A stretch of DNA of 64,000 nucleotides, taken from the NCBI RefSeq assembly GCF_009363695.1, contig NZ_CP045403.1, positions 3,018,001-3,082,000 of the forward strand. The letters are read 5' to 3'. Both the position numbers and the translations under genes were made by a program. Shown here one piece after another: positions 1,988 to 28,345 of this stretch. Below the pieces are notes generated by a model, which was not told the DNA's origin, searched no databases, and worked only from the letters and a program-made list of their open reading frames with translations. Within the stretch, counting starts at the first letter, position 1; each line of letters opens with the position of its first letter. This DNA comes from Bacillus sp. THAF10 (lineage in GTDB: Bacteria > Bacillota > Bacilli > Bacillales > Bacillaceae_I).

Positions 1988-3196
1988 TTAAAAGAGATCC
2001 TCTATTCTTTTGTCTTCTGTCGTTTCTTTTCCGGTAATTAACAGCTTCTCTGTGCGTTCGACGGCATCTTCCACCATTTTTTCTCCATCTAAGAAGCTTT
2101 CATAAAAATTGATCTTTTCCTTTTTTGGTTTTGTTTTCGGTGAGGCTGGTGTGAAGATGGTACAGCAATCCTCATATGGTCTGTTTGAAATTTCCATTGT
2201 ATCAATGGTTTTAGCTATATCCATAATTTCAAGTTTATCCATTGTTATTAAAGGGCGGATGATTGGTGTTGATGTTACCTCATTGATGGCTAACATGCTT
2301 TCTAGCGTTTGGCTTGCAACTTGACCAAGGCTCTCGCCAGTAATGATTGCTAACGCATTTTCTTTTTCACGTATTTTATCAGCTACCTTAAGCATAAACC
2401 GTCTTGTAGAGGTCATCGTGTAATTTTCTGGCACCTGCTTTTGAATGGCCACTTGAATATCGGTAAATGGGACGATATGAAGATTAATGGAATGTCCATA
2501 ATCCGTTAATTTTTTCGTTAAATCAATCACTTTTTGCTTCGCACGATCACTTGTATAAGGTGGACTAAAGAAATGAACTACCTCTAACCTTATTCCTCTT
2601 TTCATGGATAGGTAGCCTGCTACTGGGCTGTCAATTCCTCCTGAAAGCATTAACAGGCCTGTTCCACTTGTTCCCACAGGAAGCCCACCAGATCCCTTTA
2701 TGTCTTTACACGTAATATAAGAGGCTTCTTCGCGCACTTCCACTCTTACATTAATATCAGGCTCTTTCACGTTCACAGTTAATCCTTCTGTGTTTCGTAA
2801 AAGGTGCGAGCCGATGGCATAGTTGAGTTCGTTTGTATCGAGTTCAAAGCCTTTGTAGGAGCGTTTTGCCGTTACTTTAAAAGTTTTATTTTGATAAGGA
2901 AGAGCGTTTAAGGCAAAGAGTGCTCCTTTTTTTAAGTCTTCGATATCTGTTTTGGTTTTTACCGCTAAGCTAAAAGAATGAATGCCGAAAATATATTGGA
3001 GTCTATCTATGATTGGCTCATGAGGCTCTCCGTTTAATATAATAAACATTCTGTCTCTGCTTTTCTCAATCTTGGCCTTTGGGAATTCTTTTATTTTTTC
3101 TAAAATGTTTTGACTGAGCTTTTGGATAAAAAGCTTTCTGTTTCTACCTTTTGTAGATAGTTCTCCAAAGCGTATTAATATATGATCATAATTCAT
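1988..3196 (-). CDS. thiI: tRNA 4-thiouridine synthase / thiamine sulfurtransferase ThiI
   Basis: Adenylates U8 of tRNA and inserts sulfur to make 4-thiouridine; in some organisms it also feeds thiazole synthesis. The 402 residues contain an N-terminal ferredoxin-like plus THUMP region (about 61-165) and a PP-loop ATPase, SGGIDS at 185-190. As in B. subtilis there is no C-terminal rhodanese domain; the protein ends soon after the CCTIF motif. Its ribosome-binding site (GAGGT) overlaps the nifZ stop codon 5 bp upstream, so the two are translationally coupled. NifZ is the dedicated sulfur donor for this route. Confidence 0.95.
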   Translation of the reverse strand: MNYDHILIRFGELSTKGRNRKLFIQKLSQNILEKIKEFPKAKIEKSRDRMFIILNGEPHEPIIDRLQYIFGIHSFSLAVKTKTDIEDLKKGALFALNALPYQNKTFKVTAKRSYKGFELDTNELNYAIGSHLLRNTEGLTVNVKEPDINVRVEVREEASYITCKDIKGSGGLPVGTSGTGLLMLSGGIDSPVAGYLSMKRGIRLEVVHFFSPPYTSDRAKQKVIDLTKKLTDYGHSINLHIVPFTDIQVAIQKQVPENYTMTSTRRFMLKVADKIREKENALAIITGESLGQVASQTLESMLAINEVTSTPIIRPLITMDKLEIMDIAKTIDTMEISNRPYEDCCTIFTPASPKTKPKKEKINFYESFLDGEKMVEDAVERTEKLLITGKETTEDKRIEDLF

Positions 3197-3201
3197 TTTT
3201 T

Positions 3202-4338
3202 CTACCTCATTACTTCTTTTATGGTGTATATTGCATTTTTTAGTTCTTTTAAAAATTCTTCTATTTCGTCCTTTGTTGTCTCAGCATTCATACTTATACG
3301 AATAGAGCTATCTGCAATCGCCTGCGTTGTCCCCATCGCAGTCAAAGTTCGACTTGGAGTTTTCCTTTTTGAGGAACAAGCAGAAGTTGTCGAAACAAAA
3401 ATGTTTTTGTTTCCTAATGTATGGACAAGGACTTCCGATTTTAATCCAGGAATAGAGAAGTTCACGATATGTGGAGCAGAATGATGGACTGGTGTATTGA
3501 CATGTACAGCGGGTATGTTTAGTAATTCTGATATGCAAAAATTTTTTAACGCTTCCATATGAGATTGACTTTTACCGCTAGCTTCTAATGTCATCCGCAG
3601 TGCTTTTGTCATCGCTACGATACCTGCTACATTCTCCGTCCCTGACCTTAACTCCCACTCTTGTTCACCACCATGTTGCAGTGGAGTAAGTTTTGTTCCT
3701 GCCTTTGCAATTAACATACCTGTTCCTTTTAGGCCATGAAATTTATGTGCTGACATTGTACATAAATCAATATTAGTTAGACTTAATGGTACCTTTCCTA
3801 TGCCTTGAACATAATCAACATGCAGTGTAACACGAGGATACTTGGCTACATGCTCTGCAATGCTTTCAATGGGCTGAATTACTCCCGTCTCGTTGTTAAC
3901 ATGCATTACGGAAACCAGAATCGTTTCTGTTGTAATAGCTGCTTCTACCTGTTGAGGAGTTACCTTTCCAGACGTATCAACAGGTAGATAGGTTACTTGA
4001 AAGCCATCTTTTTCAAGTGATTGAAAGGCAAAATGTACAGAAGGATGTTCAATGGATGTTGTAATCAGATGCTTTCCTAAGTGTTTCTTGGCCATGGCCG
4101 TTCCTTTTATGGCAAGATTATTGCTTTCTGTTCCTCCAGAAGTGAAAATTACTTCCTTATCATCAACCCCGAGTAAGGATGCAATGTTTTCTCTCGAGCG
4201 GTGCAGTAGCTTTTCCGCTTTCCCACCAAGAGAATGAAGAGAGGAAGGATTAGCAAAAAAATCCGTTGAAACAGTTAGAAATGAATCCAAAACTTCCTGA
4301 TATGGTTTCGTTGTTGCGCTGTTATCTAAATAAATCAT
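3202..4338 (-). CDS. nifZ: Cysteine desulfurase dedicated to ThiI (NifZ/IscS-like)
   Basis: PLP-dependent class V aminotransferase-fold enzyme that removes sulfur from cysteine and passes it as a persulfide to ThiI. The PLP lysine is K199 in SAHKFHG; the mobile catalytic loop carries C321 in STTSACSS; SGGTESNN binds the cofactor. It has 378 residues, normal for the group. ATG is preceded by GGAGGATCTCG. It is first in the nifZ-thiI pair, transcribed away from the divergent brnQ gene. Confidence 0.92.
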   Translation of the reverse strand: MIYLDNSATTKPYQEVLDSFLTVSTDFFANPSSLHSLGGKAEKLLHRSRENIASLLGVDDKEVIFTSGGTESNNLAIKGTAMAKKHLGKHLITTSIEHPSVHFAFQSLEKDGFQVTYLPVDTSGKVTPQQVEAAITTETILVSVMHVNNETGVIQPIESIAEHVAKYPRVTLHVDYVQGIGKVPLSLTNIDLCTMSAHKFHGLKGTGMLIAKAGTKLTPLQHGGEQEWELRSGTENVAGIVAMTKALRMTLEASGKSQSHMEALKNFCISELLNIPAVHVNTPVHHSAPHIVNFSIPGLKSEVLVHTLGNKNIFVSTTSACSSKRKTPSRTLTAMGTTQAIADSSIRISMNAETTKDEIEEFLKELKNAIYTIKEVMR

Positions 4339-4634: not shown

Positions 4635-5969
4635 ATGCAAACAAAGGTATACAAAAATAAAGATATATTAGTGTTAGGGTTGATGCTTTTTGCTCTGTTC
4701 TTAGGAGCAGGAAATATGATATTCCCTCCATTACTAGGACAGGCGTCAGGTGATAATGTTGGTGTTGCGGTATTAGGCTTCCTCATTACAGGAGTCGGAT
4801 TACCATTGCTTGGGGTGATGGCGATTGCGTATACTGGCGGGGATTTACAATCACTTGCTAATCGCGTTCATCCAATTTTCGGAATAGTTTTTACCATTGT
4901 GATGTATTTAGCAATTGGGCCGTTTTTTGGCATTCCCCGAACAGGAACAGTGGCGTTTGAAATTGGGGCGACTCCTTTTCTACCTGAATCTATGAATTCA
5001 GGAGGCATTGCCTTGTTTATATTCACTATCATCTTTTTTATCATTACATTTTATCTCTCTTTAAATCCAACGAAACTTGTTGATAGAATTGGGAAGATAC
5101 TAACTCCGATTTTACTTTCGGTTATTGGTTTACTGGTGATAAAAAGCATCATTACACCAATGGGAGGAATTGGGGCGCCCACTGAGGATTACACAAGCTC
5201 CCCATTTTTCAAAGGCTTCTTAGAAGGTTATCTTACAATGGACACCATTGCTGCCTTAGTTTTCGGAATTGTTGTAATTTCAGCAATTAAAGATAAAGGG
5301 GTTACAGATAGGAAAGTAATTACGTCCTTATGTTTAAAGGCTGGATTTATTGCAGCAGCCGGGTTGACCTTTGTGTATGGTGGCCTATCCTATTTAGGTG
5401 CTACAAGCTTGAAGGCGGTAGGCATTGCTGAAAATGGCGGCCAAATTCTTTCCGGCTCCGCGAGCTACCTATTCGGTAGTATCGGTGCTGTCATTCTTGG
5501 AACAGCTATAACATTTGCTTGCTTAACTACTTCAGTGGGATTAGTATCAGCAACAAGTACGTTTTTCTCCAAGATAATGCCGGCAGTTTCCTATAGAGTA
5601 TATGTAGGGATTTTTAGTGCCTTTAGTTTGCTTGTAGCAAATGTTGGTTTGGATCAGCTTATCTCCCTTTCCTTGCCTGTGTTAATCATGATCTATCCAT
5701 TAGCGATTGTTTTAATTTTACTATCCTTCATTCGCTGGAAAAATGAATCTTATGTCTTTGGCTTTGCCCTACTTTTTACAGGGGTTATTAGCTTTTTTGA
5801 CGGCCTAGCAACTGCAGGGATAGATATTACGTTTATACAAAAAGTTTTCTCTGTGCTTCCTTTCTACAATGAAGGAGTCGGTTGGTTAGTTCCTGCCATT
5901 ATTGGGATGCTTTTAGGTATGCTCATCGGGACATTAACCTCCAAATCTTCTGAAGAAAGCATCGCATAG
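4635..5969 (+). CDS. brnQ: Branched-chain amino acid:cation symporter (LIVCS family)
   Basis: Takes up leucine, isoleucine and valine with Na+ or H+ across the cytoplasmic membrane. The 444 residues form about 12 hydrophobic segments. The family signature LGAGNMIFPP lies near the N-terminus and GPFFGIPRTGTVAFE near residue 100. The start has a CAGGAGG site 7 bp upstream. It is convergent with ezrA and shares a terminator with it. In B. subtilis the gene at this location is braB. Confidence 0.93.
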   Translation: MQTKVYKNKDILVLGLMLFALFLGAGNMIFPPLLGQASGDNVGVAVLGFLITGVGLPLLGVMAIAYTGGDLQSLANRVHPIFGIVFTIVMYLAIGPFFGIPRTGTVAFEIGATPFLPESMNSGGIALFIFTIIFFIITFYLSLNPTKLVDRIGKILTPILLSVIGLLVIKSIITPMGGIGAPTEDYTSSPFFKGFLEGYLTMDTIAALVFGIVVISAIKDKGVTDRKVITSLCLKAGFIAAAGLTFVYGGLSYLGATSLKAVGIAENGGQILSGSASYLFGSIGAVILGTAITFACLTTSVGLVSATSTFFSKIMPAVSYRVYVGIFSAFSLLVANVGLDQLISLSLPVLIMIYPLAIVLILLSFIRWKNESYVFGFALLFTGVISFFDGLATAGIDITFIQKVFSVLPFYNEGVGWLVPAIIGMLLGMLIGTLTSKSSEESIA

Positions 5970-15128: not shown

Positions 15129-15154
15129 TCTTTGTAATTTGCAGGATAACACAC

Positions 15155-15200
15155 AAAAAACCCTTGAAACGTTGATATATCAATGTTTCAAGGGTTTTTT
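15155..15200 (+). terminator. Terminator of rpsD
   Basis: AACCCTTGAAAC ... GTTTCAAGGGTT (one mismatch region at the loop) followed by TTTTTT. It marks the end of the core segment before the island. Confidence 0.92.
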
Positions 15201-15202
15201 AT

Positions 15203-15540
15203 TTAATTTGCAAAATAATGCAAGATAATGAATTGATTTGGGGCCAGCTGAGGCCAAAGTGGGACCAATAAAATAATACATGGGTGAATGAATAGAAAGA
15301 AGCAAGTTATATAATGAATATTAAGAGGATACTTACGAGAAGCAAACATAAAAAATCCAGACCAATCTGCAAGGTGATATACACCATTTGCATTTTGAAA
15401 TTTCACGGTGTATATCACATGTAAAAAGCTAAGAGGGGGTTTCCTCTTAGCCTTATTCTATAAATTATCTTATTCCATTAAAGCCCCTTATATGGAATAA
15501 GACATTTCCTTTGCTGTTTTGTTTATAACTTAGACTTTAC
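15203..15540. other. Island left-edge intergenic region with inverted repeats
   Basis: No convincing gene. It holds a 12-bp perfect inverted repeat, GTGATATACACC (15374-15385) with GGTGTATATCAC (15407-15418); the Mrr terminator (15424-15451); and a 10-bp perfect inverted repeat, CTTATTCCAT (15469-15478) with ATGGAATAAG (15492-15501). Three palindromes within 130 bp at a core/accessory junction could be remnants of a mobile-element end. Confidence 0.5.
15424..15451 (-). terminator. Terminator of the Mrr-like gene
   Basis: Minus strand GCTAAGAGG, loop AAACCC, CCTCTTAGC, then TTTTTA. Confidence 0.75.
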
Positions 15541-15560
15541 CTTTATTCGTTGTACTTTAT

Positions 15561-16472
15561 TTACTTTGAAATGACTTCACCATTATCATTAAAAGTCCAT
15601 TTATCTAAATCTTGGTCAAATATAATTTGGTCAAAGTCCTCATCAAGAACTTTAAATACCAATAAGGCAACTTTACTTCCTTGGTCAATAATAGTTTCAG
15701 TTACGTTTTGGCTACTTGTGAATTCATAGTCAAATCCTCTGACTCCCACTAATACCCCTGCCAGTTTAACATATTTAATTGTATCAAATTCATAACGACC
15801 AGTAGTTGGAGAATCCGGGTCTCTGGGTAGACTATTGAATATAGGTTTTAAAACTGTTTGTAGATTTTCTTGAGGTTTTCCTGCTTGATCATAAATGAAT
15901 GTTTCTATTGTACTAGTGTTTTGAGTTGTATTAATTTCTTCATTAGCATTAGCATGAAATTTTTCAATTTCCTGTTCATTAGCTGCAACCCAAGATAATG
16001 TCGGTTGGTTCATAAAGGTAATCGTCCCTTTTAAATTTATAGCTTTTATTCTGCCTTCCCAATCCTCTTCTTTAAAACCTCTAAGTATTGCTAATATTAT
16101 TCCTTCATCTTCTGCAAAGGTTCTGGCACCTCTTGTATATCCTTCAGTAGTAACAACAAAAGCTTCATTAGGGTTAATTTGGTGAACCGCACCAAAGAAA
16201 TCTCTTACTATACTTATCCCAACTTTGGAGTCATAGTCTTTACATTCAATTAAGATTCGCTTAGATACATTTGAGCTTGGGCTTTGGACTGTGACATCTA
16301 TTTGATGTCCTGTTTTCTTTCCATCTCCACGAAGTGTTAAATCATGAATAACAACATCATTCTGGTTTAGTATTTTAAATACTACTGCTGCAAGTTTTTC
16401 ATACTTTGTACCTTGTTTTAATTTTTCCTCTGCAATATTTTCATTGTAAATAGTATCTATTTCTTTACTCAT
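15561..16472 (-). CDS. Mrr-like restriction endonuclease-fold protein
   Basis: Probable nuclease of the Mrr/PD-(D/E)xK group. Residues 20-135 show the pattern: GTKYEKLAAVVF helix, catalytic D59 in GHQIDVTV, E76-x-K78 in ILIECKDY, then a conserved helix (VRDFFGAV) and AFVVTTEGYTRGA. The C-terminal 150 residues are acidic and not recognised, perhaps a partner or sensor domain. The start follows AAAGGAGAG. No methyltransferase or specificity subunit is adjacent, so it may act alone, as type IV enzymes do on modified DNA; that is inference. It lies at the left end of an AT-rich island. Confidence 0.75.
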   Translation of the reverse strand: MSKEIDTIYNENIAEEKLKQGTKYEKLAAVVFKILNQNDVVIHDLTLRGDGKKTGHQIDVTVQSPSSNVSKRILIECKDYDSKVGISIVRDFFGAVHQINPNEAFVVTTEGYTRGARTFAEDEGIILAILRGFKEEDWEGRIKAINLKGTITFMNQPTLSWVAANEQEIEKFHANANEEINTTQNTSTIETFIYDQAGKPQENLQTVLKPIFNSLPRDPDSPTTGRYEFDTIKYVKLAGVLVGVRGFDYEFTSSQNVTETIIDQGSKVALLVFKVLDEDFDQIIFDQDLDKWTFNDNGEVISK

Positions 16473-16502
16473 TTCAACTCTCCTTTTTACTTATTATACC
16501 AT

Positions 16503-16854
16503 TTATTGCAAGTTTTTATGGTAGATATTAAATAGAACTGCACGTTTGTTAAGTGAACGAACTCAAAATATTATAGATATCCATACTTAAATCATATCAG
16601 AAGACAAAAATTATTATTTTGTTTTTCTATAAATATGGAAATATTACGTCGGAGGTGGTACATTCATGTCATTGGGTGTAATCACACTGGAAAACATCTT
16701 AAAACAGGACAGCGTTTTATAGTTTGCTCCTACAAAAATGAGGATTATTTTATTCAATACTCCTACTATTGATAATTTGTTTACTTATTAAAGAGCAATC
16801 AAAAAATCCTAGAAACATTTGTTACCTAAAGTATCTGGGGTTTTTATATTATTT
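16503..16854. other. AT-rich stretch between Mrr-like gene and a gene fragment
   Basis: No supported gene. Short overlapping frames at 16635-16772 (45 codons, no ribosome-binding site) and 16666-16722 (18 codons after GGAGGTGG) look like one decayed or chance coding stretch. A terminator-like hairpin lies at 16802-16848. Confidence 0.4.
16802..16848 (-). terminator. Terminator-like hairpin after gene fragment
   Basis: Minus strand AAAAACCCCAG ... CTAGGATTTTTT, imperfect stem plus T-run, just after the stop of the 16855-17142 reading frame. Confidence 0.5.
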
Positions 16855-17142
16855 CTAAATTGTAGAATAAATCTCATCATCCAAGAAAAAGGATTTTTTG
16901 TTTAATAACTTTGAATGATCTAGATATAAATATTCTTTCATAAGCTCTAATTCCAGATCCTTTTGAACAGGTTTCTTTTTTAATCTCTTTTGATCTCTAC
17001 TAACAAACTTTTTATCTTTTTTTAGAACAAGAATCTTATTAGTAATAATTCTACCCAAGGATTTCTCTGGATACTTATCCCTATATTTCCACAATCCTTC
17101 TTCAGTATCAAACTCAATCGCTGCACTTTTAAGTTTATTTTT
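16855..17142 (-). pseudogene. Fragment of an unidentified Lys-rich protein
   Basis: An open frame of about 95 codons runs from just after a TGA to a TAG-type end at 16855. It has no ATG; the only initiator is an internal TTG at 17094 without a ribosome-binding site. The product is basic (GRIITNKILVLKKDKKF) with an acidic C-terminus (FFLDDEIYSTI). The intact 3' end plus terminator and missing 5' end suggest the tail of a truncated gene. I do not recognise the family. Confidence 0.35.
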
Positions 17143-17362
17143 TCAATGAATCATATAACTGAAAAAAGAAGAAAAATTCGCGAAGAGAAAATTAAAAAAA
17201 TTGAGGATCAAGTGGATGAATTACTCAGTTTATTAAACAATGATAGTAAATAGTAGTCCACAAACAGGGCAGCTGACAGCTAAGTGTGTATATGTTACTC
17301 CCGTCTTCCCCCGTTAAAAATAGGAAGAGGTTTTATTTACTCAGTTTTATTCTCGTCTACTA

Positions 17363-17530
17363 TTACTCATATTCAGATAAATCCGGTGGATAGGATGGAA
17401 ATGATCGTTTTCCATATACCAGCCCGCCATCTATACCACACCGACCACAACTACACCTCTGAAAGTCGTGTTGATCTTTAGACTCTATTTTATCTTTACA
17501 ATGCTTACATTGAATAAGGAATGTGTGACT
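17363..17530 (-). pseudogene. N-terminally truncated DUF7695-like zinc-ribbon protein
   Basis: Minus-strand frame reading IQCKHCKDKIESKDQHDFQR then CSCGRCGIDGG, GKRSFPSYPPDL and stop. The two CxxC/CxC pairs followed by a Val/Ile-Asp-Gly-Gly segment are typical of small Bacillus proteins of this type. The frame is closed upstream by TGA exactly where PadR coding sequence of the opposite strand begins, so the N-terminus is lost. Confidence 0.5.
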
Positions 17531-17675
17531 TCATACTGGAGTCAGGAATCGGAAGGCGGAAGGAGAAAATATTATTCAATCACTGAAACCGGGAGTACTG
17601 TATTGGCAGACAAAACTAAAGAATTGGAAACAAATCAATAAGTTAATCGAAAATACAGTGGAAGGATTATCATGA
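17531..17675 (+). pseudogene. PadR-family regulator, C-terminal remnant with a frameshift
   Basis: SYWSQESEGGRRKYYSITET then GSTVLADKTKE is the wing and following helix of PadR winged-helix regulators. An extra T near 17624 shifts the frame; removing it restores EWKQINKLIENTVEGLS and a TGA that overlaps the ATG of the next gene (ATGA), the normal padR-HAAS coupling. The DNA-binding N-terminus is missing. Confidence 0.6.
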
Positions 17676-17875
17676 AGAAGCTTGAGCGGTATGTGAAGGA
17701 GATAACGAAGGACCTGCCCGAAGATGAAAAAGAGGAATTGACGGAAGAGATTTACGGACACCTTCAGGACCATGTAAACGAGCTGCTAATCAAAGGACAA
17801 TCTGAAAAAAAGGCAATCCGTTATGACATTAGAAATCCTATGCAATATTTTCTTACCTGCTTACGTTACGTCTGA
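17672..17875 (+). pseudogene. HAAS-domain (DUF1700-like) membrane protein, truncated
   Basis: 67 codons. The first 50 residues (LERYVKEITKDLPEDEKEEL, then TEEIYGHLQDHVNELL) are the HAAS/permease-prefix domain usually found at the N-terminus of membrane proteins encoded with PadR. After about residue 53 the sequence becomes unrelated (RNPMQYFLTCLRYV) and stops, so the membrane part is lost. Confidence 0.55.
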
Positions 17876-17901
17876 GTTGTCTTTTTAATGCTTTACCTTC
17901 T

Positions 17902-17956
17902 TAGAAACTGCACTATACCTGTCGCTTTTTTCCTCTAAAATGAAGTGCAATTTCTA
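17902..17956. repeat. Short inverted-repeat element
   Basis: TAGAAACTGCACTA (17902-17915) and AAGTGCAATTTCTA (17943-17956) are inverted copies matching at 12 of 14 positions around a 27-bp centre. It follows the broken HAAS gene; it could be a minimal transposon end pair. Confidence 0.4.
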
Positions 17957-18008
17957 TGGATTGTCATTATTCAGTAAGCTATTTAGTCATAATTATTATA
18001 ATTAACAA

Positions 18009-18042
18009 CTTGAGTGTGATAATGGCTATTTTCGCACTCTTG
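18009..18042 (-). terminator. Terminator-like hairpin after HEPN-motif gene
   Basis: Plus-strand GAGTGTGA (18012-18019) and TCGCACTC (18032-18039). It is nearly identical to the hairpin at 20213-20246 after the ImmA gene. Confidence 0.6.
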
Positions 18043-18054
18043 CTATAAGTAATA

Positions 18055-19875
18055 TTATAAAAAAAGATATTTAGGCATAGCTACTTCCATTTTACTATCT
18101 CCAACATCTGAAGCTAGATGACGGGTGTACCATTCATATGTATCTTGTATAGAATAAAGTATCTCTATTATTGTTAATTCTGGATTTCTTTTCATATGAT
18201 AAATTAATGTGCCTAACAACGAATTCACATACGCAAATAACCTTGCAGTAATTATATTTAAATTCGGTGGCATAAGTCCCCCAGAATGGACTAACTTATT
18301 TCGAATACGATAAATTCTGTTCAAATCGAATTTGATAGATTTCTCAGTGTACGTCATAAACTCTAATATATTTGTTGCATCTTTTAATAAAAAATTTATA
18401 TCTGCAATTTCTCTTTGAATAATAATATTATCCTTTGATTCATAATACAAACAAGTTGATAAAGTTTTGTCAGACAAAAAGTCTAGGATATTATTTTTTT
18501 TATATTTGACTTTCCCGCTTTCATCAGTATAACTGCAACGTTCAAAAAAGAGGCTCATCGCAGGAAGTTCTTCGTGTAAATTTCCCTTTTCCCTTTTTTT
18601 ATAGTATCTTCCCTCTATTCTATCCCATAAGATATTTATTTTATCCTTTAACAAGTATAGACAGATTACTTTAGGGATTATATTTCTGACTTTTTCAATG
18701 ATTGAACTCTTTGGCAAAATACCCACTATATACTCTGTTGAATACCAAAAGTTAAGCAATTTATTTTCTTCCGAAGAACCTTCAAATGAATTTATAGTAT
18801 TTAAAGCTCTTTCTATAGTAATTATATCAAATTGATTGCTTTTAGAAGTGGAAAGCTTCCGTAACTCGATAAAATCTTTAATATCTTCCTTAAACCTTTC
18901 ATTAAGTTTAAATATATCATTATCTAATGAAATATCTAAACGTTTCTTTTCCCACTTTTCACCTACATAAAGCAAATATGTATTATCAAATATATTATTT
19001 GGGAACTTTTCTATATGTTTGTATATTTGAATATATTCAATAAAAATCTTTGATAGATTATTAATTGCTTTATATTCATCCAATTCATATATTTCTGTTT
19101 GTAAAAGTTGTTTTTTATTATCATTTAAACCAGTAAAATTGTCCTGTACTATACTTTTTAAATCTGAACCCACACTTTTATAAGTAATGTCTTGTGTGTT
19201 TATATACCCATTATCTTCGAGGTCTCTTCTTACCCCATTAGGTAACCATGTACGGATAATTACTTTAAAGCAACTTTTAGTTAGATGAATTTTTTTGAAG
19301 TTATCTAAAATTCCCTCTAACTCCTCTGCCGATTTTTCTATGCCTGTTAATGAGCTTTTTATATTTGAAATCCACCAATCACTCAAGTATTTCAATGAAA
19401 ATCCTCTATTAACTAGGTCACTAACGATGCACTCTATCAACCTATCAACTTCTCCAAAGCTTAGATTCTTATTTTTTAATAGATCGATATAGAGTTCCAT
19501 AAAATCATAATTTTTTAACCTCTTAGTAAACGAACTTACTGTATGATGTAAAGCAGGATTAGTTTCAGTACCTTTAATCCTAGATAATAATTTTTGAATA
19601 TCTTTTTTAAAAAACTCATGTTTATAAATCGGATTATAGTTAATAACATGTTCTATATTATCGTATAAATTAAGCAATATTTTTTCCAATCGATCCTTAT
19701 TTCCTGCACTAGCTGCTATCTCTTCCAATAATTCGTTACATTCTTCAAATAAGAATACCAAAGAATCTAAGCGTTTCTTCTTTAGTGAATTATGATGATC
19801 ATTAAAGAATTCTTGTATCTTATAGATAAAATAATACTTGCTATTATTTTTTTCTGTATTTATAACCCGACTCAT
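18055..19875 (-). CDS. Unknown 606-residue protein with C-terminal HEPN-type motif
   Basis: No family is recognised over the first 480 residues, which are mainly helical, Lys/Asn/Ile-rich and lack transmembrane segments. The C-terminal part (about 490-575) resembles an Apea-like HEPN domain: a helix ending RIYRIRNKLVH supplies R525-x4-H530, the catalytic pattern of HEPN ribonucleases, followed by a hydrophobic helix. HEPN proteins of this size include single-gene antiphage factors. The start follows GGGGGTG. It is transcribed alone, AT-rich, in an island beside a putative nuclease and an ImmA protein. Target and activity are unknown. Confidence 0.65.
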   Translation of the reverse strand: MSRVINTEKNNSKYYFIYKIQEFFNDHHNSLKKKRLDSLVFLFEECNELLEEIAASAGNKDRLEKILLNLYDNIEHVINYNPIYKHEFFKKDIQKLLSRIKGTETNPALHHTVSSFTKRLKNYDFMELYIDLLKNKNLSFGEVDRLIECIVSDLVNRGFSLKYLSDWWISNIKSSLTGIEKSAEELEGILDNFKKIHLTKSCFKVIIRTWLPNGVRRDLEDNGYINTQDITYKSVGSDLKSIVQDNFTGLNDNKKQLLQTEIYELDEYKAINNLSKIFIEYIQIYKHIEKFPNNIFDNTYLLYVGEKWEKKRLDISLDNDIFKLNERFKEDIKDFIELRKLSTSKSNQFDIITIERALNTINSFEGSSEENKLLNFWYSTEYIVGILPKSSIIEKVRNIIPKVICLYLLKDKINILWDRIEGRYYKKREKGNLHEELPAMSLFFERCSYTDESGKVKYKKNNILDFLSDKTLSTCLYYESKDNIIIQREIADINFLLKDATNILEFMTYTEKSIKFDLNRIYRIRNKLVHSGGLMPPNLNIITARLFAYVNSLLGTLIYHMKRNPELTIIEILYSIQDTYEWYTRHLASDVGDSKMEVAMPKYLFL

Positions 19876-20272
19876 TTTTTCACCCCCAGATATTGACTAA
19901 CTCCTATAAGAGTATTATAATTAATTCATAAACAAAACCAAAGTAACATATAATAATTATGCAAATACTGAGCATATCACTTACGAAACGGGCTGCATGA
20001 GCAGTTCCCCCGAGGTGTTTATGCTCTTTAATATTTTTAGGAGAGGTTTTTTTTTATACTTACTATTATAAATTTTACCAATAACGAAAGTAAAACGTTT
20101 AAAACAAAAATACTCTTCAGATGATTCTTCTCTAATCACCTATCCATTATTTACTTATAGTTTTTGAATATTAAAACACAATTGATAACTCCTTAATATA
20201 ATTTTTCAATAATAAGAGTGCGATAATGATAATTTTCGCACTCTCATATATATATGCTTTTAGACAAAATAA
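19876..20272. other. Intergenic region between HEPN-motif gene and immA-like gene
   Basis: 397 bp, strongly AT-rich. It must contain the promoter of the minus-strand HEPN-motif gene and holds the terminator of the downstream-facing ImmA operon. No gene seen. Confidence 0.5.
20213..20246 (-). terminator. Terminator of XRE/ImmA operon
   Basis: GAGTGCGA (20216-20223) and TCGCACTC (20236-20243); on the minus strand it is followed by TTATTATTG. Near-duplicate of 18009-18042. Confidence 0.65.
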
Positions 20273-21436
20273 TTAACTACTTTGTTTTTGTTTAAAATCT
20301 TTTATTTTTAAGACCACTTTAGATTGACTATTATCCATGAACAGAGCTGGGTCAACTCCACAAATCATTGCTAACATTTTCGGCGTAAGATATAGATTAT
20401 ATTGCTCAGCAATTTTCAACGGTATTTCATGTCCTTGTAAAATATTTTCATCAATTAACAATTCTAAAGATTGTTTTAATGCAACGGGTAAAGTTACTTT
20501 TGTTTCTGTATCAAACGGTTCTGGATTCCTCCATTTTCTATAATGCATTTGTTTATATAATTTCACTTCTTGTTCAACTGAAATTATATCCAAATCTCTA
20601 GCTCGTTTAATCATAGCTGCCATAGAAACGTTCCATCTTCTTTTCAAATTATAATATGTGTCTATCTCATCTACTATTTTTGACTTTAATTCTTCTCCAA
20701 AGGATTCCTTTGGCAAAAGAAATATTGAGGCAATTTTATTAGCCTCATCTTCAATTACCTTATACTCATCTTTATCTAATTCTTGGGGATTAATACTTTG
20801 ATGAAGAACCCAGTGACCTATCTCATGAGCAATACTAAATTGCTGTCTATAAAACGATCCTGACTCACCTGTAGTAATTACAAAATAACTATTTCCATTA
20901 ATAGTGTTCATACTACTAAAGGCATCAACTTTATCTTCTTGATATTCCATACTTATAACCGTGAATCCCATTAATTCTGCAACTTCAATAATGTCATGAA
21001 TTGGTTTTAACCCTAAACTCATAGACTTTCGGATGTTTAAAGCAATTTCTTCAGGATCATCTTTTCCCTCATAAATTTCCCTATTATGCAAAACAGGGAA
21101 ATCAATATACTGTTCCAGAAAGTCTCTTACAATAACTGAATATTTTAGTGCAATGGAGGCAGGTTCTTTTGATTTCTGGGTTGTTGTTAACCTAGATCTA
21201 AAAAAAGTTCCTTCATTGTCAATTAGGTGCTTATCAACAGTATAGAAAAATTCACGTGGATATCCTAAAATATCAATTAACTGTAGAGATTTTTCGAAAC
21301 TTGGTTCACTCTTTCCACTTTCATATTTTGAAACCATTTGCTTAGTGACATTTAACTTCTCAGCTAATTCGGTTATGGTAAGTTTATTGTATAGTCTAGC
21401 TTCCTTTAGCCTGCTTCCATTAAATATCTTTTTCAT
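20273..21436 (-). CDS. XRE helix-turn-helix / ImmA-IrrE metallopeptidase protein
   Basis: 387-residue fusion. Residues 8-62 form a Cro/C1-type helix-turn-helix (RLKEARLYNKLTITELAEKL, then VSKYESGKSEPS). Residues 110-260 form an ImmA/IrrE (COG2856) zinc peptidase with H204-E205-x-x-H208 and a downstream E231 as likely third ligand. A C-terminal segment of about 120 residues is unassigned. Such fusions act as regulators or antitoxins that cleave a repressor or neutralise a partner. It begins 16 bp after the upstream 236-residue gene, with a GGAG site in that gap, so the two form an operon. Confidence 0.85.
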   Translation of the reverse strand: MKKIFNGSRLKEARLYNKLTITELAEKLNVTKQMVSKYESGKSEPSFEKSLQLIDILGYPREFFYTVDKHLIDNEGTFFRSRLTTTQKSKEPASIALKYSVIVRDFLEQYIDFPVLHNREIYEGKDDPEEIALNIRKSMSLGLKPIHDIIEVAELMGFTVISMEYQEDKVDAFSSMNTINGNSYFVITTGESGSFYRQQFSIAHEIGHWVLHQSINPQELDKDEYKVIEDEANKIASIFLLPKESFGEELKSKIVDEIDTYYNLKRRWNVSMAAMIKRARDLDIISVEQEVKLYKQMHYRKWRNPEPFDTETKVTLPVALKQSLELLIDENILQGHEIPLKIAEQYNLYLTPKMLAMICGVDPALFMDNSQSKVVLKIKDFKQKQSS

Positions 21437-21452
21437 ATTACTATCTCCAAAC

Positions 21453-22163
21453 TTACTTTATATTTTTCAAACTAACAATTTGTTTTTTCTCCTTCTTGGT
21501 CTCAGGAGCATTTTTACTTTCTCGTTTCTCAGGTTTAATATTATCATCTTTAAGGACCAATCTATAATTGCTTTCTATAAGATCAGTAAAGTCACTTTCC
21601 CATACAACTTCCTGTCTAGTATTAAAGGCAAAAGCTTTAACAGTCGAAACAAAAGAATGGTCAAAAGTAAATATGAACACTTTTGATGGGTCTCCTTCCA
21701 TCTTACTTAGCATTTCCCTCGCTTGCTCTTTTAAAATTTCTATACTTTCATCTTCACTGTCTAAAATAGGAAGTGCTATTTGCGAATCAATTGGGAGCAA
21801 TTCATCAAAATACTCATTGAATAAATTGAGAAGTTTTAAATAATGATTATTCTTACCTTTTTTAATAATTTGTCTCATATTTTTGTGACTAAAGAAAACA
21901 AATAGTTCATTATCCTGCCCTAAAATCAAAACAGCTTCCCATAATCTACCTCTATCAATCTTTATGTACCCTAACCCAAACCTTTTTGCTATTTCGATTA
22001 ATGTGTTATACCTATAATCCCATTTTTGTTTTGAACTACTATTCTGAGTGCCTTCCCCAGACTCATTATTTATAGATTGTAAGTATAGTTGTCGTGCTTC
22101 TGGATCATCCATTACAAGAGCATTTACTATGGCTTTTACAATGTCATTATGTAAGTTAATCAT
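21453..22163 (-). CDS. Unknown protein paired with XRE/ImmA (DUF5986-like)
   Basis: 236 residues, no membrane segment. An N-terminal helix (INLHNDIVKAIVNALV), a central alpha/beta region (RFGLGYIKIDRGRLWEAVL) and a charged Lys/Glu-rich tail. It resembles proteins annotated DUF5986 that I recall beside ImmA-type genes; that recall is moderate. ATG follows ATAGGAGG. As first gene of a two-gene operon with an XRE/ImmA protein it is a candidate effector or toxin, which is inference from context. Confidence 0.6.
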   Translation of the reverse strand: MINLHNDIVKAIVNALVMDDPEARQLYLQSINNESGEGTQNSSSKQKWDYRYNTLIEIAKRFGLGYIKIDRGRLWEAVLILGQDNELFVFFSHKNMRQIIKKGKNNHYLKLLNLFNEYFDELLPIDSQIALPILDSEDESIEILKEQAREMLSKMEGDPSKVFIFTFDHSFVSTVKAFAFNTRQEVVWESDFTDLIESNYRLVLKDDNIKPEKRESKNAPETKKEKKQIVSLKNIK

Positions 22164-22507
22164 TTAATACCTCCTATTCTATCTACTATTTTAGATTTTT
22201 TTGTTAAAAAGTCAACCATTTTTGATATATATTGATAAAAATTATATTTTCAACATCATAAGATCCATTTTGTTATTTCTATTTGATGTGGCTACTATCA
22301 TGATTTGGGGCTGGATTGGAACTGGTTAAAATCGTGGAAAGACGCTTTAAGGCGATTATTGTATATATAATATGATGTTGTAATTAGGCCTTGATTAAAT
22401 ATGAATCTTTGTTACAAAAAAACAAGATCCCTTGCCTCAACTAAATAATTGAGGCAAGGGATCTTGTAGAACTTCTTGTCATTTTTTCTTATGAGGCTTT
22501 CTAATTA
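22164..22507. other. Intergenic region with perfect 19-bp hairpin
   Basis: AT-rich; should hold the promoter of the DUF5986-like/ImmA operon at its left end. The only clear structure is the hairpin at 22415-22467. No gene seen. Confidence 0.4.
22415..22467 (-). terminator. Perfect 19-bp hairpin terminator
   Basis: Arms 22422-22440 and 22449-22467 pair at all 19 positions around CTAAATAA; on the minus strand a T7 tract follows. It lies downstream of the thiC remnant and could be its old terminator. Confidence 0.75.
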
Positions 22508-22603
22508 CTAGTAAAATGAAACATTTATTTTATTACAATTGATACATTTTTCATGATGGTTATTTCCTACAAAATTATGATTACAATTTTGTAGGATCTC
22601 TTT
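22508..22603 (-). pseudogene. Possible zinc-ribbon protein C-terminal remnant
   Basis: Minus-strand frame of 31 codons reading ILQNCNHNFVGNNHHEKCIN then CNKINVSFY and TAG. The CxH ... CxxC pattern resembles tails of small phage-type zinc-ribbon proteins. No start codon. An 11-bp inverted repeat (CCTACAAAATT, 22566-22595) lies inside it. Confidence 0.3.
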
Positions 22604-22744
22604 TTAACTTTTCTCAAAAAATGCCCGGTGAGTCTTGAGTTAATTAATTTACACTTCAATTTTTTTCTACATTCACCCAAATATCCCCCTAAGAAAGTTA
22701 CTATATATGTTACCACCAGATTGCTTATACTGTGCAGCATTTTC

Positions 22745-23331
<587 letters not shown>

Positions 23332-23822
23332 AAGAGTCATTTGGTCTGAAAAAAATTAGATCGACTAATTGAACGAATTTGAATGAAGTTAGATGATAGA
23401 GTTGAAGTTTAATAATATCGTAATGTTTACTAAGAAGTTATCTGGTTTTAGAGAACTAAAAGCTCAGAAGAAAAATTTATAAATCTTGCGTGATCTTAAA
23501 CAAGGATTTTGCAAGTCTTCATTTTAATATTCTTTTATAGAGAGATTTAGTTATTAGTTATTTAAAAATCGTAATTAGATACTTCCAATTAGAAAAAAAT
23601 AAATTTTTTGCCATATTTCAGACAAGTATTAAATTAAATTAGTAAAGAAAGATTAAATTGTACCACAACAAAAGGACTAAAACTATATGCCTAGAAGAAT
23701 ACTTAATTTTATTTACATATCAAATATAAAAATTTAAAGTAATATTATGTAAATTAAGGAGGGTGGATTAATAGACAGAGAACTTTTAGAAAATATTAGA
23801 TTTTAATAGGGAGAGAGATTTA
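23332..23822. other. AT-rich intergenic stretch
   Basis: About 490 bp without a supported gene. AAGGAGGGTGG near 23758 is a good ribosome-binding site but is not followed by a usable start; the frame after it closes within 12 codons. The promoter of the amidase gene probably lies here. Confidence 0.4.
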
Positions 23823-24869
23823 ATGAAAAAGAAAATTTTAAAAATTTTACTTTGTATGGGTTTAATTTTCACATTGGTTCCATTTCAGCCATCTATTAAC
23901 GCATCAACTATCAACGAAAATATTATGTTGGTGGATCTAGAGAACTTAGTAAAAAGTCATTTAGAAGAAAATCAGCTCAATCATCATCTATCTGTTGAAA
24001 CTTACACAGAATATTTAATGTCATTACTAATAGAAGATGCAGATCCTATTTTAGCTAACCATCCTAATTATGAACAGATTTTGTATTATGCTGCTGAGTA
24101 CATTTATGAGTTAGAGAAGTTACAAACAGCAGCTATAACAAATCCTGAAGTATTGGATGAAATCGAGAATTTTGATCTTGGTGATAAATTAGATAGTACC
24201 TTAAAAGAAATAAAACATGAAATAGCTCAAGAAGAAAACCAAATCGAAGAAGATATAAAAAGTTTTAGAGAAACTAGTATTCAACCCATCAAACTAATGG
24301 AAAATGTAAATAATGGGGGGAAAATTGGAATACAAGACATAGGTGGTTCTGGTTGGAATGGTGCCGCTGCTGCTAGTTATGCTTATGACTGGTACAAAAA
24401 ACGTAATTCTCAATACGATAGTCACACATTAAATTGTACAAACTTTGTATCACAAGCTATTCACGCTGGTGGAATGAGTGAGAAAAAACTATCTCCTTTA
24501 CCTAGACATATTTATGATACTACTTCATATTGGTATTCAGACCGTACACACGAGTGTGTAGGATCTAATAGTTGCCGATACCATTATCATGAAGCTACAT
24601 CTTGGATTAGGGTAGTTGACTTTTACTCATATTGGAGTAAAACAAAAAATGTGACAATATCAAGCACTAAATCTACTATTGTCAGCAACTCCTTAGTAGG
24701 AGATGTTGTTCAACTTAAAAGAGCATCGGATGGAAGGTGGTTCCATTCAATGATAGTGAATAGAAAAGCTAACGGAACAATTTATCTCGCAGGAAATACC
24801 AACGATACTTATGATAAACCGCTCACAGATATAAGCGCGCAATCATTCAGAGTTATCAAATTTAGATGA
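23823..24869 (+). CDS. Secreted protein with putative amidase (Amidase_6) domain
   Basis: 348 residues. An N-terminal signal peptide (MKKKILKILLCMGLIFTLVP) with probable cleavage after INAS, a helical acidic region (30-155), then an Amidase_6/CHAP-like papain-fold domain: C205 in TLNCTNFVSQAIHAGG, H308 in RWFHSM and a downstream Asn in LAGNTND fit the Cys-His-Asn site. It is likely exported and acts on the cell wall or on proteins outside the cell. A small membrane protein gene follows 84 bp later. AT-rich coding sequence like the rest of the island. Confidence 0.75.
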   Translation: MKKKILKILLCMGLIFTLVPFQPSINASTINENIMLVDLENLVKSHLEENQLNHHLSVETYTEYLMSLLIEDADPILANHPNYEQILYYAAEYIYELEKLQTAAITNPEVLDEIENFDLGDKLDSTLKEIKHEIAQEENQIEEDIKSFRETSIQPIKLMENVNNGGKIGIQDIGGSGWNGAAAASYAYDWYKKRNSQYDSHTLNCTNFVSQAIHAGGMSEKKLSPLPRHIYDTTSYWYSDRTHECVGSNSCRYHYHEATSWIRVVDFYSYWSKTKNVTISSTKSTIVSNSLVGDVVQLKRASDGRWFHSMIVNRKANGTIYLAGNTNDTYDKPLTDISAQSFRVIKFR

Positions 24870-24953
24870 TACTACTATTTCCTCATTACAAAAGTTTCAA
24901 TTATGATTATATTTATAATTAGATTATTTACACAGTAGGCGAGGATGGTTAAT

Positions 24954-25409
24954 ATGAAAAAAATAAAGAAAATATTATTGACTGTTTCTGTTATTTTTAT
25001 AATTGTTTTAGCCTGGGGTTTATATTCGTATTCTCAATATGGAGAATTAAGAGGTGAGGGTAATACGGGTGCTACAAATTGGACTGCCTCATACATTCCA
25101 GATAAATCTGTAAAAGAAATTTGGAGAGGAGACCTAACTTGGGAACAGCAAGAAGGTAAAATCACAAAATATGAATTTATTAAAGATGGCCAAATAATGT
25201 CTACTCTAGAGGATAATAAGTCAATTAATATGGCTTCTAAGGGTATTCATTCATTTGCTTCAATAGGTGAACCTCCCATTAAGGGTTCTGAATATAAACT
25301 GGTGATTTTTTGGGAAGTGAATGGTGAAACCTTTAACGAAGAGATTCAATTGAAATACAAGAACAGCTTTTTTGTTATTCCACGAATATTTTATACACTA
25401 TCAAATTAA
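24954..25409 (+). CDS. Hypothetical membrane-anchored protein next to amidase gene
   Basis: 151 residues: one N-terminal transmembrane helix (about 6-27, KILLTVSVIFIIVLAWGLYS), then an extracytoplasmic domain with no cysteine. I do not recognise it. I choose ATG 24954, 9 bp after GAGG; the ATG at 24945 abuts the site. Same strand as the amidase-like gene and close behind it, so the two may be co-transcribed and act together outside the cell, for instance as an immunity or modulator protein; that is conjecture. Confidence 0.6.
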   Translation: MKKIKKILLTVSVIFIIVLAWGLYSYSQYGELRGEGNTGATNWTASYIPDKSVKEIWRGDLTWEQQEGKITKYEFIKDGQIMSTLEDNKSINMASKGIHSFASIGEPPIKGSEYKLVIFWEVNGETFNEEIQLKYKNSFFVIPRIFYTLSN

Positions 25410-25474
25410 AATCACTGTTAGATTTTCTCTAGATAGTAGAATATACTCCCTTTAGGCTAAGGAAGGGCTTTTTA

Positions 25475-25664
25475 TTACTTGCGCAACTTATTCAAAAAAT
25501 TTGTATTCTGTGCTGTAGTACCAATGTAGTACTTAACTCCGTGTAGTTTGGCCAACTTAACACGATTAGCAAAAGATGAGTCTTGATTAACCGAAGTAAT
25601 CGACAATACTAACAGTTTTTAAATTTCCTTGAGCCAGTTGAGATTGAAGTTATCCTTAGCCAAA
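25475..25664 (-). pseudogene. Phage-type lysin C-terminal cell-wall-binding remnant
   Basis: Minus strand: LQSQLAQGNLKTVSIVDYF, a one-base frameshift, then SVNQDSSFANRVKLAKLHGV and KYYIGTTAQNTNFLNKLRK with stop. The pattern SSFxxRxKLAxxxGIxxYxGTxxQNxxLL is the repeat found at the C-termini of Bacillus phage endolysins and autolysins. No catalytic domain remains upstream. Confidence 0.55.
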
Positions 25665-25773
25665 AGTTAAAACAAAGATGATTATATTTTTATCTCCTAT
25701 CAACCTGGACACCAATGACTGAAAATACCATCATGTATTCTATGAGAAGAATTTTATAAAGAAACTAACCTTA

Positions 25774-28082: not shown

Positions 28083-28345
28083 AAATAAACAAAAAAACCC
28101 ATCCCTCCTAAAAAGAAGGGACGAGTTTATACGCGGTACCACCCTAATTGGAAAGCAAAATATTGCCTTCCCACTCAAAAAAGTAACGGTTTTCACCGTC
28201 CACTGCTACTAAGTCAACGGACTTTTCCCAATGGATGCTCTAGGAGGTAATTCATACTATAAGGTGTACTGATTTTCACCAACCATCAGTTCTCTGAAAA
28301 CATGCCTTAACGTACTACTAATTCCTGTCTTTGCACATGCTATAC
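28083..28345 (-). promoter_or_regulatory. Tyrosine T-box riboswitch with terminator/antiterminator
   Basis: Minus strand shows the T-box core GGGTGGTACCGCG (about 28130-28142), followed by a terminator (CTCGTCCCTTCTTTTTAGGA, then GGATGGG and T8). The likely specifier codon is UAC (Tyr) at 28247-28249 within GAATTACCTCC, agreeing with the downstream gene. Uncharged tRNA-Tyr should switch on antitermination. Confidence 0.93.

Follow-up and report, generated by a model that had tools for sequence, protein, structure and literature searches.

A predicted divergent ApeA-type HEPN protein encoded in a variable island of Bacillus sp. THAF10

The ApeA family of HEPN proteins was reportedly named by Anantharaman and colleagues, and according to the title of a preprint, deoxydinucleotides are said to activate ApeA. 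ApeA is listed as a known antiphage HEPN protein in passages of two reports (PMC10952713, PMC7699616), and a passage of a third states that HEPN RNases act as homodimers, with ApeA among those named (PMC13405049). An excerpt of a survey names the ApeA HEPN family and places it, in epsilonproteobacteria, inside restriction-modification (R-M) operons (PMC3710099), and enzymes that destroy deoxydinucleotides are described in part of another report as occurring near defence genes in Gram-positive bacteria (PMC11706625). No paper on the mechanism or structure of ApeA was among the literature matches listed. A further system that enters the comparison, RosmerTA, is presented in an excerpt of PMC10440598 as a tested antiphage system.

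The window analysed here is a stretch of 64,000 nucleotides from Bacillus sp. THAF10 (contig NZ_CP045403.1, positions 3,018,001 to 3,082,000), whose genome forms one 4.09-Mb contig and gives one match to the ApeA-like protein. The gene and its parts are as follows.

18055..19875, minus strand: ApeA-like stand-alone HEPN protein, 606 aa (open reading frame; solved ApeA matched by profiles; unrecognised by four family libraries)
18841..19875, minus strand: putative N-terminal sensor half, residues 1-345 (N-terminal-only profile versus ApeA, E 3e-17; secondary structure of the model, pLDDT 82.6)
18058..18912, minus strand: C-terminal HEPN domain, residues 322-606
18286..18312, minus strand: predicted catalytic motif YRIRNKLVH, residues 522-530 (R525, N526, H530), with Y522, R525, N526 and H530 invariant in 23/23
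20065..20094, minus strand: promoter-like site TTTACT-18-TATAAT, possible own promoter (10/12 consensus matches)

The open reading frame comprises 606 codons with an ATG start preceded by a ribosome-binding-like stretch, GGGGGTG, and the plus-strand reading of the same stretch contains 56 stops. An earlier interpretation made from the letters of this DNA (the sequence-only reading) had given the coordinates and the length of 606 residues correctly, and had left the minus strand unstated. It had also called the gene monocistronic, which is plausible from the sequence context: the gene lies 397 bp from the RmrA gene and 1582 bp from the Mrr gene, and it is preceded by its ribosome-binding-like stretch and by the promoter-like site at 20094-20065, which is a consensus match only, of a type common in this AT-rich region (64 sites found versus 49.1 expected, sd 7.6). 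Upstream of the gene there was no signal of a structured RNA leader (z-score -0.21).

No significant match to the protein was found in Pfam, PADLOC, NCBIfam or PHROGs, using the curated cut-offs of the libraries and, for PHROGs, which has none, a significant E-value. The best sub-threshold matches were Pfam DUF6123 (E 0.039, below the cut-off) and a PHROGs family (0.087), with none at E<=1 in NCBIfam; an HMM check of the kind proposed in the sequence-only reading, run on Pfam and PADLOC, gave no HEPN model that matches. Among 5.8 billion proteins searched, seven relatives were found besides the query, with identities from 74 to 31% and none with a precomputed Pfam domain, the closest being a protein of 606 aa at 74% identity. 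A profile search of the same proteins returned no relatives beyond those seven; these protein searches scored the 7994 candidates sharing most words, and distant relatives may be missing.

The kinship with ApeA emerged when profiles were compared with the sequences of the PDB. For a profile of the eight closest sequences, all six distinct matches at E<=1 are E. coli ApeA, the best with E 3.7e-10 over residues 111-601 and with a composition bias of 34.4 bits against a score of 42 bits; later profiles add intermediates. With the 23-member profile, ApeA accounts for seven of the nine distinct PDB sequences at E<=1 (E 4e-52 to 7.3e-38), and positions 15-592 of the 607 in the profile align to residues 17-570 of the 593 in Ec2ApeA at E 4e-52; the other two matches are 8g4k (5HCS_TGFBR2_1, E 0.0094) and a de novo protein (0.082). 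A profile of the N-terminal half, built from residues 1-345 of the window protein together with the corresponding halves of 12 homologues (13 in all), finds Ec2ApeA at E 3e-17 (over 17-312), Ec1ApeA at 1.8e-13 and Ec4ApeA at 1.1e-8. Of the 21 distinct sequences that it finds at E<=1, six belong to ApeA and the other 15 score 0.19 or worse; the Ec3 chain, which the 23-member profile matches, is not among the 21.

Independently, the PADLOC ApeA model matches four of 24 family members, of which three align over almost their full length, and all four score 4.7e-25 to 4.9e-15 with the A1 profile; the best of them, L019, has 1.8e-16 with the PADLOC model and 4.7e-25 with A1. The same model misses 20/24 family members at E<=0.01 and matches none of the eight sequences comprising the window protein and its seven closest relatives at E<=1, and because both the window protein and most of the family are missed, the window protein lies far from the tested ApeA members. 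Recognition by this model is a matter of detection threshold and does not define ApeA.

Judged by these alignments, the window protein is a divergent ApeA homologue over nearly its whole length and not a new architecture. Since the N-terminal profile matches ApeA, the putative sensor half is related to that of ApeA, and the candidate of a new sensor domain is ruled out by the same match. The sequence-only reading had found the first 480 residues unlike any family, a view contradicted by the N-terminal match (E 3e-17) and the whole-length one (E 4e-52), and it had assigned the C-terminal domain to the Apea-like HEPN type, with which the sequence comparison agrees. Its proposal of a stand-alone defence factor holds as far as a stand-alone, defence-associated gene is concerned and fails in the novelty of the sensor part.

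In the C-terminal domain, YRIRNKLVHSG spans residues 522-532 and contains R525 and H530 at the positions given in that reading. A bare R-x4-H occurs once in the window protein and is weak evidence, because 40% of 2000 composition shuffles contain at least one; YR-x-RN-x3-H was found in 0/2000 such shuffles. In a 23-row alignment, seven of the 606 columns are invariant (W377, E381, Y522, R525, N526, H530 and Y549), all of them in the C-terminal domain, and six of the seven remain so in a 24-row alignment that includes the truncated homologue L007. The 23-row alignment (A4), all rows of which were counted for invariance, omits L007 (487 aa, with approximately 110 residues missing at its N-terminal end), the fragments in L006, L012, L014 and L021, the plasmid homologue L024, and also L011 and L015, which have no open reading frame at E<=0.01. 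Rows L002-L005, L008 and L009 were found by patterns, one of which is the HEPN motif, and the invariance of the motif therefore comes partly from selection; P0002-P0008 were found through shared words taken from the query's first 500 residues.

When the eight-sequence profile is aligned to the PDB sequences, R525, N526 and H530 fall on YRTRNLIVH of Ec2ApeA. At the position aligned with R525, PDB entry 9hxe (whose sequence is common to 9hxf, 9hxg and 9hxh) has A where 9hxd has R, and this difference suggests that 9hxe is an inactive mutant made deliberately by the depositors.

In the structure model (pLDDT 82.6), the N-terminal half is predicted to be helical from about 11 to 195 and mixed alpha/beta from about 202 to 312. 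Foldseek with the whole model gave no match at E<=0.001, and the VIA rows of the whole-model fold search consisted mostly of unspecific helical matches to 37-123. The viral fold library likewise yielded 0 matches at E<=0.001, and the ApeA PDB entries are absent among the 50 fold-search matches listed, from a library that extends to 2026-04-08 and may not contain them.

We propose, with a probability of roughly 0.85, that this divergent ApeA acts as a single-protein abortive-infection RNase, in which the N-terminal half would sense infection and a composite HEPN site would cut RNA. The N-terminal half (approximately residues 1-345) would keep the C-terminal HEPN domain inactive and would sense a product of phage infection; if E. 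coli ApeA is a guide, the trigger would be deoxydinucleotides or something similar released when DNA is broken down. Upon sensing, the HEPN domains of two chains would come together, their R525, N526 and H530 making up a composite RNase site, and cleavage of RNA at this site would stop phage growth and arrest the infected cell. In this scheme the RNase activity, the pairing, the sensing of infection, the trigger and the growth arrest are all borrowed from ApeA or from HEPN biology in general. The N-terminal ligand may differ from that of ApeA, because residues 1-320 are without an invariant residue in the 23 homologues.

A special case of this proposal, whose odds lie within those just given and not beside them, is a re-targeted N-terminal half, the protein being an ApeA-fold RNase that responds to another cue (an oligonucleotide or a phage protein) or acts on another RNA target. 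We regard it as a tentative possibility: residues 1-320 diverge fast and hold 0/7 of the invariant columns, and the model libraries miss the clade, but collinearity with ApeA persists in the N-terminal half, where F16, G158, F193 and D266 are kept in 20-21 of the 23 homologues.

The surroundings of the gene comprise the following features.

15130..25772, no strand assigned: variable mosaic island between rpsD and the GNAT-like gene before tyrS (empty site in L037 and L038; rpsD-tyrS distances; GC)
15561..16472, minus strand: Mrr_cat restriction-endonuclease-like protein (Pfam PF04471, E 8.5e-14)
20273..21436, minus strand: RmrA, HTH plus ImmA/IrrE-type protease antitoxin of RosmerTA (PADLOC E 4.6e-121; Peptidase_M78 and HTH_3)
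21453..22163, minus strand: RmrT, RosmerTA toxin (PADLOC RmrT E 5e-29; Pfam DUF5986 E 2.1e-23)

The island was delimited by a genome comparison with one genome per species. Its left edge falls at 15130 or 15205 according to the relative compared, with L033-L035 staying alike to 15204. In two same-genus genomes (L037, L038), the end of rpsD meets the GNAT-like gene within a few bases and the island of approximately 10.6 kb is absent; since these sites are empty, 15130/15205-25772 is inserted sequence. The genes that we take to be rpsD, tyrS and the GNAT-like gene were named from their translations. The GC content of 15205-25772 is 0.307, compared with 0.378 and 0.402 in the flanks. A single contig holds both rpsD and tyrS in 14 of 20 relatives, with distances between the two of approximately 0.13-1.5 kb in 10, 3.5-4.7 kb in three and 44 kb in one, compared with 11.7 kb here; of the remaining six, four have the two genes on different contigs and two are without a match for one or both. 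Between 14000 and 28500, Rfam finds nothing besides a T-box at 28114-28340 on the minus strand, upstream of tyrS (RF00230, 142.9 bits), and there are no tRNA genes in 9000-33000.

The 44-kb case (G002, L031-L033) contains a prophage of approximately 42 kb beside the GNAT-like gene, called from a reading of its open reading frames with the integrase and amidase confirmed. The segment 25478-25643 (minus strand) of the window is 60% identical over 45 residues to the C-terminal end of the G002 prophage amidase and is likely to be a prophage remnant; as this fragment sits at the right end of the island, the island may have arrived with a prophage at the same site. The mosaic nature of the island shows in the segment 22303-23329, which resembles the 3' end of thiC and the sequence after it in the relative G004, where thiC is located within the rpsD-tyrS interval. 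The segment shares 85-88% identity with L034:3576-4689, a stretch from a same-genus genome that includes the 3' end of an intact thiC open reading frame (2511-4295) and sequence downstream. It looks like a remnant of the thiC 3' end, given that no open reading frame of at least 90 aa is listed over it. The island also encodes an Amidase_6 protein at 23823-24869 on the plus strand (Pfam E 1.9e-22).

The decayed look of parts of the island, namely the amidase fragment and the thiC remnant, would fit a passenger gene of a prophage relic that is itself decaying and has lost its function. This is improbable for a gene with an intact 606-codon frame, a 606-aa relative at 74% identity, all seven invariant residues kept and a ribosome-binding-like sequence, and the window protein is probably a functional divergent ApeA.

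The defence-like neighbours that the sequence-only reading had remarked on are borne out by PADLOC and Pfam, with RmrT and RmrA upstream and the Mrr_cat endonuclease downstream. The HEPN protein could be a third component of RosmerTA, an extra toxin held under the RmrA protease/antitoxin and not under its own N-terminal sensor: the gene comes immediately after RmrT-RmrA and shares their strand, and RmrA antitoxins paired with different toxins are described in part of PMC10440598. Such an arrangement is quite unlikely in view of the 397-bp gap with its promoter-like site, the presence of the same N-terminal half in the ApeA relatives, and the neighbourhoods of the homologues, where none of 12 loci (11-20 kb) has a match to RmrA, RmrT or the Mrr gene (tblastn, E<=0.01). 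As 0/12 of these loci carry RmrA or RmrT, a functional link to RosmerTA was rejected, and RosmerTA looks like a neighbour and not a partner.

The homologues themselves are found in several other settings. In Clostridium sulfidigenes (L004) the homologue is flanked by hsdS and hsdR within a type I R-M locus, in L026 it is approximately 4.9 kb from IetS, and in L029 it directly follows a gene for a DrmD-type helicase, with PglZ lying further upstream. In L030 it is preceded by a resolvase gene and by transposition genes of the TnsD/TniQ type, and in L024 a plasmid of Priestia carries it. At least five homologue loci (L004, L024, L026, L029 and L030) thus share a defence or mobile setting with the window, an association without a measured background. 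Among 84 open reading frames of at least 100 aa within 5 kb at 11 of the 12 loci (L006 being left out), named defence systems occur in at least three of the 11 neighbourhoods scanned, considering the best 25 of 204 families; the PADLOC candidate PDC-M69B accounts for three of the 84 neighbours among the matches listed. At L030:83-9624 the ApeA-like gene is the apparent cargo of a Tn7-like element with a Mu-transposase C-terminal domain, TniB and TnsD/TniQ. At L006:3732-8885, from Halonatronum saccharophilum, the homologue is split, with a Mutator-family transposase (4732-5913) and what are presumably pyrimidine genes between its two parts.

The ApeA-like family is sparse and patchy. Species genomes contain eight loci with relatives, the last ones distant, and a relative at E<=1e-3 is present in 3/41 genomes, counting the genome itself and with one of the three being a weak partial match. 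At E<=1e-5 the figures are 7/397 genomes for the order and 8/398 for the phylum; both include the genome itself, and several of the matches are partial. Phage-borne copies were found in 0/50,697 phage records; in IMG/VR, 202 stretches match a pattern and none encodes a relative by tblastn. Two of 72,556 plasmid records have a match, one covering at least 80% of the query. A housekeeping function outside defence, for which no supporting point was found, is very improbable for a HEPN gene that sits in a variable island and has so patchy a distribution.

The divergent-ApeA reading extends ApeA to a clade missed by the models of Pfam, PADLOC, NCBIfam and PHROGs, and because these four libraries miss it, counts of such systems in Bacillota genomes are probably too low. 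The 23-sequence alignment provides a ready detection profile for the clade, and more defence cargo could be sought in the rpsD-tyrS interval. Whether or not this branch responds to the same deoxydinucleotides would show how flexible ApeA sensing is; a re-targeted sensor, if true, would amount to a separate, currently undetected type of single-gene defence that has its RNase in common with ApeA. The surprise is modest, in that this is a known kind of system and an ApeA member beyond current models.

Among the known systems that can be set beside it, RosmerTA (RmrT-RmrA) is a known antiphage system and the direct genomic neighbour of the ApeA-like gene, but its proteins differ from the ApeA-like protein and it is not found beside the homologues. 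The fold match to the Csm6 HEPN ribonucleases (PDB 6tug, 8pe3, 5yjc and 4rgp) does not reach the safe level, and unrelated receptors occur in the same list of matches. The ApeA-NTD1 domain is described in the excerpt of PMC3710099 as consisting mostly of beta strands, whereas the N-terminal half of the window protein is helical and then mixed in its predicted structure. Relative to ApeA itself, the window clade is too divergent for the PADLOC ApeA model and shares few N-terminal residues, and in contrast to the E. coli proteins, the close relatives with known names belong to Bacillota. Like E. coli ApeA (Ec1-Ec4ApeA; PDB 9hxb-9hxn), with which it is collinear, the window protein has the RN-x3-H HEPN motif and consists of one chain of approximately 600 aa.
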